Source: an uncultured Flavobacteriaceae bacterium (lineage in GTDB: Bacteria; Bacteroidota; Bacteroidia; Flavobacteriales; Flavobacteriaceae). Taken from it: DNA of 41,568 nucleotides. A model generated the notes under the pieces. That model saw nothing but the letters and a program-made list of their open reading frames with translations. It searched no databases and was not told the DNA's origin. Within the stretch, counting starts at the first letter, position 1, and each line of letters starts with the position of its first letter. The translations under genes and the position numbers were made by a program. Of the stretch, positions 34,031 through 36,394 are shown one piece after another. The stretch spans positions 1 to 41,568 of the forward strand of contig CALHCJ010000012.1 in NCBI GenBank assembly GCA_937936275.1. The letters are read 5' to 3'.

Positions 34031-34855
34031 TTAGTCAATCTCAACTCTACTTTCTACCACTTCTTTTATCGGCACCACTAGTTTTCCATTGATAGTTTTT
34101 ATGGTCACAAAAAGACTATCGATTGACTCTATTGTTCCTTCGACGTCACTAAATTTAATTTTATCTCCAATAGCATAACTTTTTCTTGCGTAGAAGGTCT
34201 TGAGCAAGTTGGAAACCACATCTCTTGAACCCAAACCAAATGCGATTGAAAATGCTAACAAGAATGATCCTAAGATCAACGTAAAATTACTTGTTATAAT
34301 GGTAGTATCAATACCCGCCTGATTCAAAGCGGTTATCGTTACAAAAATTAGTAAAATATAGAATACGATTCCGCTCACTAATTTAGAACCACCAAATCCC
34401 ATAGACTCAAAGACACTTACCAACATATTCTTGATAAGCTTTGCCGCAAATAGTCCTACCATAAATATCACCATGGCACTCAACAAAATAGGTAAATAGC
34501 GAAGTAGATTTGCGATCTCTGTTGAGATCACGGTTAACTCAGCTATATCAGCAGCTACTATTATAAAAACAAGTAGTAAAAGCCATTTAACAAAGCTTAA
34601 TAAGACCTTTTCAATATTAATCTTAATCTCACTTTCACCAAAAAGTTTTGCGTCATTTATCTTATCTGATAATTTTGAGACCTTGGCTACCCTTAGTACT
34701 TTTTTAAGAATAAATCTGATTATTTTACTAATGACCCATCCTATAAGCAATACTACGATTGCTCCTACTATTTTTGGAAAGGCAGAAGCAATATCCATTA
34801 GTATTGAGGATATCGTATTAAAACTTAGATCTTTCCATTGATTTACAGTTTCCAT
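34031..34855 (-). CDS. Small-conductance mechanosensitive ion channel family protein (MscS)
   Basis: VVLLIGWVISKIIRFILKKVLR...GLGSRDVVSNLLKTFYARKSYAIGDKIKFSDVEGTIESIDSLFVTIKTINGKLVVPIKEV. Confidence 0.9.
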   Translation of the reverse strand: METVNQWKDLSFNTISSILMDIASAFPKIVGAIVVLLIGWVISKIIRFILKKVLRVAKVSKLSDKINDAKLFGESEIKINIEKVLLSFVKWLLLLVFIIVAADIAELTVISTEIANLLRYLPILLSAMVIFMVGLFAAKLIKNMLVSVFESMGFGGSKLVSGIVFYILLIFVTITALNQAGIDTTIITSNFTLILGSFLLAFSIAFGLGSRDVVSNLLKTFYARKSYAIGDKIKFSDVEGTIESIDSLFVTIKTINGKLVVPIKEVVESRVEID

Positions 34856-34875: not shown

Positions 34876-35070
34876 TTAACGTTTGTTATCTGTATTCGTT
34901 TTCATCATTCCCTCAATTGTCGATTTATAATTGCACGTAAATAAAGATGCCATTTCCATAGCTAACTTAGCCATAGCAATGTCATCCATTACCTTCTTTT
35001 TCATATGAGCAGGTACATCTTTCATAGAAAGTTCCAACTCCTTAAAGGGATTTTGTTTTTTCTCAGACAT
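34876..35070 (-). CDS. 64-aa protein of unknown function, start overlapping the ECF sigma stop codon (TAATG)
   Basis: MSEKKQNPFKELELSMKDVPAHMKKKVMDDIAMAKLAMEMASLFTCNYKSTIEGMMKTNTDNKR; tight operon position between sigma and MscS genes. Confidence 0.75.
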   Translation of the reverse strand: MSEKKQNPFKELELSMKDVPAHMKKKVMDDIAMAKLAMEMASLFTCNYKSTIEGMMKTNTDNKR

Positions 35071-35642
35071 TATGGAATTTTATTATAAATTTCTGCTATT
35101 CGAGCCTTAGCCCGTTTTAGCCTCATCTTTACTGCGCTTTCACCAATATCCATCAATACCGAAAGCTCCTTTATACTTACATCGTCTTGATATTTTAATA
35201 ACAATATCGTTTTATCTTCTGGATCAATCATTTCTAACGCCTTCTTTAGTTTATGTGAACGCATTTCAAGAATACTATCATCATCTAAATAAACCGAAAG
35301 CTTATTTGGTTCTTCTGCAATTGAATCTGACTTATCACTTATTTTTCTGCCCTTATTTCTATTCACGTAGTTTACGCAAAAATTGTATGTAAATGAATAC
35401 ACCCAACTAGAGAATTTAGATCTACCTTGAAAACTTCCTAGTTTCACAAACAACATTAAAAATACATCTTGGGTTAAATCTTCAGCCTCTGCCGCAGATT
35501 TGGCAAAACCATAGCATTTATTATAAATAACCTGAGAATACCGATCGTAAAGCGTTGCAAACAACATCGTATTATTGTTTTTAACAATTTCGCGAACAAG
35601 CTCCTCGTCAGTTAATAATTTCGACGCCGGTTCTGTTTCCAA
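35070..35642 (-). CDS. RNA polymerase sigma factor, ECF/sigma-70 family (TTG start)
   Basis: DRYSQVIYNKCYGFAKSAAEAEDLTQDVFLMLFVKLGSFQGRSKFSSWVYSFTYNFCVNYVNR (sigma2) and LLLKYQDDVSIKELSVLMDIGESAVKMRLKRAKARI (sigma4). Confidence 0.95.
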   Translation of the reverse strand: METEPASKLLTDEELVREIVKNNNTMLFATLYDRYSQVIYNKCYGFAKSAAEAEDLTQDVFLMLFVKLGSFQGRSKFSSWVYSFTYNFCVNYVNRNKGRKISDKSDSIAEEPNKLSVYLDDDSILEMRSHKLKKALEMIDPEDKTILLLKYQDDVSIKELSVLMDIGESAVKMRLKRAKARIAEIYNKIP

Positions 35643-35670: not shown

Positions 35671-35700
35671 TTAAGACACCTATTTTTTCAAATAGTCACT
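35671..35700 (-). promoter_or_regulatory. Candidate ECF-type promoter copy A: AGTGACT-N13-GGTGTCTTAA, upstream of the sigma gene
   Basis: Matches copy B (36161-36190) at all 17 defined bases with identical 13-bp spacer; 29 nt upstream of the sigma start. Confidence 0.75.
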
Positions 35701-35806
35701 TTTTTTAAAGATTTCAATAGTATAGCAATAAATAACCTGGCAATGTAATGAAAAGATCAATGTAATTTTTCACTAAAAAGAAGTACATCGTTAATTTTAA
35801 TAAAAT

Positions 35807-35832
35807 AAAAAAGCCCCTGAGAGGGGCTTTTA
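35807..35832. terminator. Terminator between the 53-aa ORF and the sigma promoter
   Basis: aaaaAAGCCCCtgagaGGGGCTTtta; A/T tracts on both sides. Confidence 0.75.
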
Positions 35833-35965
35833 TTGACTGAATTAAAAAACTAAGGGGGAACCTAATTTTGAATAGAAGATTAAACCTCCCAACCGAATTT
35901 CTAAAACAAAATTATCCTTATTTAATTCTAGTCAACATGAACAGTTGTGGTTAGTGTTTGTATAG

Positions 35966-36127
35966 TTACAACCGCTTCATTTTATGTGCTTTTTTAATGG
36001 GTTGAACAGATATTTCTTTCTTGAAAAAATAATCGAAAACCATTGTTGGTACAATAACTACTAGAGCTATTAAAAAGATGATAACTCCAGTTGTGAAAAG
36101 AAAGTTTGATAAAGTAAATTCGCCCAT
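35966..36127 (-). CDS. 53-aa single-TM membrane protein (not in the supplied ORF track)
   Basis: Manual translation MGEFTLSNFLFTTGVIIFLIALVVIVPTMVFDYFFKKEISVQPIKKAHKMKRL*; preceded by promoter copy B and followed by a terminator. Confidence 0.65.
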   Translation of the reverse strand: MGEFTLSNFLFTTGVIIFLIALVVIVPTMVFDYFFKKEISVQPIKKAHKMKRL

Positions 36128-36160
36128 AATAACGTTTCAATAATTTTAGTGTCTCAATTA

Positions 36161-36190
36161 TTAAGACACCATAAATTTTATAAAGTCACT
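36161..36190 (-). promoter_or_regulatory. Candidate ECF-type promoter copy B: AGTGACT-N13-GGTGTCTTAA, upstream of the 53-aa ORF
   Basis: See copy A; 34 nt upstream of the small ORF start. Confidence 0.75.
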
Positions 36191-36319
36191 ATAACTACGA
36201 AAAAAAATAAAAAAAGTTCGTTTTTGGAAATAGCTAGTTGTGCTATTCTATTTCAATAAGACCAACCCTGAAGCCAAATACAAATAAGAAGAAAATTTTA
36301 CGAAAGATATAAGTAAAAG

Positions 36320-36394
36320 TGGGATATACTGGATTCGAACCAGTGACCTCTGCCCTGTCAAGGCAGCGCTCTAAACCAACTGAGCTAATATCCC
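36320..36394 (-). tRNA. tRNA-Val (anticodon GAC); 3' CCA not encoded
   Basis: GGGATATTAGCTCAGTTGGTTTAGAGCGCTGCCTTGACAGGGCAGAGGTCACTGGTTCGAATCCAGTATATCCCA folds as a cloverleaf; anticodon loop TTGACAG. Confidence 0.93.

Follow-up and report, generated by a model that had tools for sequence, protein, structure and literature searches.

A duplicated promoter-like element and the probable regulon of an extracytoplasmic function sigma factor in Flavobacteriaceae

In a 41,568-nt contig of an uncultured Flavobacteriaceae bacterium (CALHCJ010000012.1, assembly GCA_937936275.1; positions 1 to 41,568, hereafter the window), a 30-bp element occurs twice on the minus strand. One copy precedes an operon that encodes an extracytoplasmic function (ECF) sigma factor, a 64-aa protein (p64), and an MscS-family channel; the other precedes an open reading frame (ORF) for a 53-aa membrane protein (p53). 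The locus raises the question of what reads this element and which genes it serves. We consider it very probable (about 0.9), from sequence comparison, that it is a −35/−10 promoter read by the adjoining sigma, and that it heads the sigma operon, p53, and a small envelope and osmotic regulon. The element, its conservation, its co-occurrence with the sigma gene, the gene order, and the targets were computed directly; from these we strongly infer that the sigma encoded at 35642-35070 recognizes the element directly.

A sequence-only reading of the window had described a duplicated minus-strand 30-mer, and its measurements were verified. The outer 17 bases of the copies are identical, the spacers are 13 nt each, and the 3′ end of either copy lies about 30 nt before a start codon (TTG at 35642 and ATG at 36127). 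The arrangement GTGACT-N16-GTCTTAA is in keeping with ECF promoters. When the window was shuffled by dinucleotides, the chance expectation for the pair was 0.00, and nowhere else in the 3.38-Mb draft genome does the near-exact pattern occur. Two details of that reading were corrected. The terminator proposed between the two units is present, with its stem at 35831-35809 of the minus strand and not at 35807-35832. The spacers do have the same length in both copies, but their sequence is not wholly free, and relatives continue the −35 side as GTGACTTTT.

Of 80 named loci carrying an orthologous sigma, 74 have GTGACYTTT-N~11-GTKTCTWA ahead of the sigma gene, usually about 57 nt from its start, so that the paired motif is kept in relatives, which the sequence-only reading had named as the check to be made. 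The form GTGACTTTT-N~11-GTGTCTWA is that of the window's clade and Maribacter, and a form with GTTTCTAA occurs in Muricauda, Flagellimonas, and Croceitalea. The distance of 15 nt from GTGAC to GTGTC is nearly fixed. In loci with an interrupted frame across the element, GTGAC and the key −10 positions never change and the flanks are much more variable, so that the element is conserved as DNA. Covariation of sigma residues with the −10 variant was examined and is confounded by phylogeny.

The distribution of the element followed that of the sigma gene. Genomes were searched with the fixed strict pattern GTGACYTTN12GTGTCTWA, with the reversed pattern as control. In a set of 60 genomes, strict matches were present in 13, all within the 15 that carry the sigma. 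A larger set comprised 201 genomes drawn across the family, with the sigma in 77 and absent from 124. It contained 104 strict (GTGTC) matches in 53 genomes, all of them sigma-bearing; none of the 124 sigma-less genomes had the strict pattern, and the reversed control gave no match in the 201 genomes. Judged from coordinates in a count by eye, about 18 of the 104 sites are the promoter of the sigma itself. The genus of the window had the element in 5/5 sigma-bearing and 0/10 sigma-less genomes.

The genus also allows one target gene to be followed with and without the sigma. Of the 15 genomes of the genus, 14, with the present one among them, encode an orthologue (at least 78% identity) of a second MscS gene of this genome, L019. 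The element stands upstream of it in three of the five sigma-bearing genomes and in none of nine sigma-less ones. At about the element's place, most sigma-less congeners have a sigma-A-like box of the TAnnTTTG type, for example TATTTTTG in G011 (by eye); TAnnTTTG is the flavobacterial sigma-A element (PMC9723704). In these orthologues it looks as if one promoter had replaced another.

This exchange bears on a different explanation, in which a DNA-binding regulator would use the element as its operator, a direct repeat GTGAC-N15-GTGTC with a 20-nt period, and a housekeeping sigma-A promoter would start transcription. GTGAC and GTGTC do match at all but one base and are spaced by two turns of the helix, as would suit an operator. 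We regard this as very improbable, however, because the presence of the element follows a sigma gene, because the sigma-A-like box of the sigma-less congeners lies at about the element's place, and because, in 53 of the 101 sites having an ORF, 20-65 nt separate the element's 3′ end from the start codon, which leaves little space for a separate downstream promoter. There is also little to be said for a real ECF promoter that is read by another ECF sigma of the genome. About 22 sequences in this genome match the sigma model, and ECF sigmas are known to overlap (PMC9723704). On a first look, however, the sigma-less genomes keep many ECF-like candidates and yet are without the element. Autoregulation, moreover, is the usual arrangement of ECF sigmas.

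Several observations weigh against recognition by the adjoining sigma. In 61 of the 80 loci (L034-L100), the −35 box supplies, with its GTG, an in-frame start codon for a conserved extension of the sigma N-terminus, which is hydrophobic (VTFLKRLFLILI and similar); the open frame shows codon periodicity, and synonymous changes are in excess. That the conservation upstream of the sigma is coding only, with this GTG starting a longer sigma, is nevertheless hardly credible, since the element is kept in the window and its clade, where the frame is broken, and precedes many unrelated genes, also in the open-frame clade; coding is therefore at most an overlap with the promoter in those 61 loci. For the window, the coding-only reading is ruled out because the GTG of copy 1 is followed four codons later by a TGA. 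A longer sigma made from an upstream promoter is possible. Recognition by the adjoining sigma has also to accommodate Zobellia (L027-L031, L033), in which the element before the sigma itself is lost or degraded; two upstream copies are kept there, each before an ORF for a one-helix protein. The strict pattern is missing from 24 sigma-bearing genomes; the GTTTC variant was present instead in five of ten that were searched again. One genome (G084) has four sites, but its only sigma of this kind is divergent, is interrupted by an in-frame stop, and lacks an adjoining p64 or MscS. The Fisher p of 4e-30 for the co-occurrence in the 201 genomes ignores kinship. Finally, a one-mismatch search of the bacterium's own genome was noisy (11 sites vs 13 control matches), and the site with one mismatch before an MS-channel gene (L143) therefore rests mainly on gene content.

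The strict sites are intergenic: 7 of the 104 fall within a frame of 100 or more codons, compared with 78% for positions drawn at random from the loci concerned. Across the family, the genes behind them encode the sigma, MscS, MscL, LysM, DUF2853, DUF3078, DUF1508, M48 proteases, OmpA-like proteins, dodecin, and others; the targets in this genome are included in Table 1. Two further sites (L157 and L241) precede genes that share N-terminal sequence with the OmpA-domain gene L018. In another clade, the GTTTC variant stands before LysM, MscS, aquaporin-like, OmpA-like, and DUF3078-like genes. The genome-scale regulon anticipated for this element was thus recovered by the scan across family genomes, and the expected osmotic and envelope theme by its targets, which are channels and envelope proteins. 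A sigma cascade is possible in G179, where 109 nt separate the element from a downstream gene of the primary-sigma type (L180; regions 2, 3, and 4).

Of 25 extra copies of the element near sigma loci, 23 are followed by an ORF of 50-99 aa that begins 21-37 nt downstream, whereas random positions yield such an ORF in 0.35%. These ORFs code for one hydrophobic helix and a charged tail and are recognizable by alignment; Zobellia and some others have two of them in tandem. A homologue in G012 (L121) is under the element about 90 kb from the sigma. Because the family recurs behind copies of the element, including this distant one, the 53-aa ORF, predicted earlier as a hidden membrane protein, is most likely a real gene.

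Other sites may be followed by short untranslated RNAs. In 18 of the 104 sites, an intrinsic terminator lies about 45-180 nt downstream, ahead of any ORF of at least 35 aa (among them L113, L115, L116/L128, L137, L158, L162, L168, L169, L172, L182, L190, L191, L196, L210, and L214). Several of these are upstream of ruvX or a radical-SAM gene, several begin with a common GCTATTA, and in G022 four units of element plus terminator follow one another in tandem. When all terminators within 200 nt are counted, the real side has 23/104 and the control flanks 11/104, so that part of the signal is chance. The short terminator-ended transcripts may be regulatory RNAs.

Table 1. Features of the locus and sites of the element in this genome
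Feature	Position in window	Strand	Remarks
ECF sigma factor, 190 aa, TTG start	35070..35642	minus	Pfam Sigma70_r2 and Sigma70_r4_2 above cut-off; NCBIfam sigma70-ECF above cut-off
p64, 64 aa, small soluble-looking helical protein	34876..35070	minus	Adjoins sigma in 80/80 related loci
MscS-family channel, 274 aa, third operon gene	34031..34855	minus	Pfam MS_channel_1st_1 and MS_channel_2nd
Intrinsic terminator separating the two transcription units	35809..35831	minus	Stem found by computation
Element copy 1 (GTGACT −35 side, GTGTCTTAA −10 side)	35671..35700	minus	Upstream of sigma operon
p53, 53-aa one-helix membrane protein, ATG 36127	35966..36127	minus	Belongs to small family under same element
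Element copy 2	36161..36190	minus	Upstream of p53 gene
Element before second MscS channel (L019; C134)			
Element before OmpA-family protein (L018; C41)			OmpA domain by Pfam
Element before DUF3078 protein (L020; C193)			
Element before further MS-channel protein (L143; C60)			One mismatch

The only domains of the sigma are Sigma70_r2 (31-97) and Sigma70_r4_2 (131-182), and with regions 2 and 4 in about 190 aa it has the make-up of the ECF family. Its best NCBIfam match is the SigX model PRK09640, at 95.6 bits below the curated cut-off of 194, and for this reason membership in ECF102 is not claimed. The operon reads sigma, p64, MscS on the minus strand, an order kept in 80/80 related loci. The start of p64 overlaps the sigma stop by 1 nt in the window and lies −1 to +6 nt from the sigma end in 77 of the 80 loci, a tight coupling that would be typical of a sigma regulator. 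By sequence, p64 has no hydrophobic helix; its predicted model has two helices (mean pLDDT, predicted local distance difference test, 76), and no relative was found in Pfam or PDB. By analogy, we infer that it is a candidate anti-sigma or adaptor. A search for p64 across the phylum found it in 6/199 genomes, including this one; one of the six is outside the family, and its p64-bearing locus has the sigma and MscS and lacks the element. A plasmid tblastn search with the sigma returned only generic ECFs of less than 40% identity among the matches listed. A tRNA-Val (GAC) is encoded at 36319-36394 on the minus strand, directly upstream of element copy 2 and the p53 unit.

We propose that the sigma would autoregulate the sigma-p64-MscS operon through copy 1 and drive the p53 gene through copy 2, as the sequence-only reading had suggested; conservation of the motif and its co-occurrence with the sigma support this. 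In trans, it would drive L019, L018, L020, and, with one mismatch, L143. As a soluble anti-sigma or adaptor, p64 would hold the sigma, the channel and p53 would report membrane tension, and osmotic or mechanical stress would release the sigma and so raise the channels and envelope proteins. The sensing part, release of the sigma by envelope tension or osmotic change, is conceivable at somewhat less than even odds; its sensing and anti-sigma steps are drawn from SigX, CfrX, and CmpX (PMC8999054, PMC7641640, PMC10965496). More tentative still is a SigX-like mechanosensing regulon of Bacteroidota, in which the one-helix proteins (one or two copies by the operon) and MscS might form the tension sensor for a p64-held sigma, with channels, envelope proteins, and short terminator-ended transcripts as output.

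For a sigma present in 77/201 sampled family genomes, the results define a sharp consensus promoter together with a regulon predicted in silico, and they bring to light small membrane proteins of one family, which routine gene calling may miss. They point to a mechanical or osmotic stress response that is widespread across marine flavobacteria. No relevant description of the system in Bacteroidota was found in the open-licence literature, and a SigX-like regulon in this phylum is apparently undescribed. Only one studied case of a mechanosensing sigma is listed in a review (PMC8999054), and the idea becomes testable in a second phylum.

Sigma-E and AlgU of Gammaproteobacteria direct an envelope stress response, are autoregulated, and have envelope targets. 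The system described here shares with them the promoter geometry, the (predicted) autoregulation, and the envelope targets, whereas its box sequences and target genes are others and no membrane anti-sigma of the RseA or MucA kind was found in this operon. The AlgU consensus is GAACTT-N16/17-TCTNN (quoted in PMC7641640), to be compared with GTGACT-N16-GTCTTAA here. ECF-type promoters are known within Flavobacteriaceae from Flavobacterium psychrophilum SM6, where, unlike here, they were assigned to a different kind of sigma/anti-sigma pair (PMC9723704).

The closest known system is SigX (ECF102)-CfrX-CmpX of Pseudomonas aeruginosa, where the sigma gene likewise has genes for a small protein and an MscS-family protein as neighbours, as in all 80 loci here. 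Pseudomonas SigX controls cfrX, cmpX, and oprF, that is, a small protein, a channel, and an OmpA-type gene (PMC7641640, PMC10965496). An OmpA-type gene, a trait of SigX/ECF102, is also in the regulon predicted here, with the element before the OmpA-domain gene L018, whose porin role is putative, and the theme of envelope or membrane stress is common to both. The two differ in that the sigma comes first in the operon here and downstream of cfrX-cmpX in Pseudomonas, that p64 has 64 aa and CfrX 84 aa, that the SigX consensus is not precisely defined (PMC7641640) whereas the one found here is sharp, and that a family of small membrane proteins is added here. As far as can be seen by analogy, the flavobacterial system works like SigX-CfrX-CmpX.
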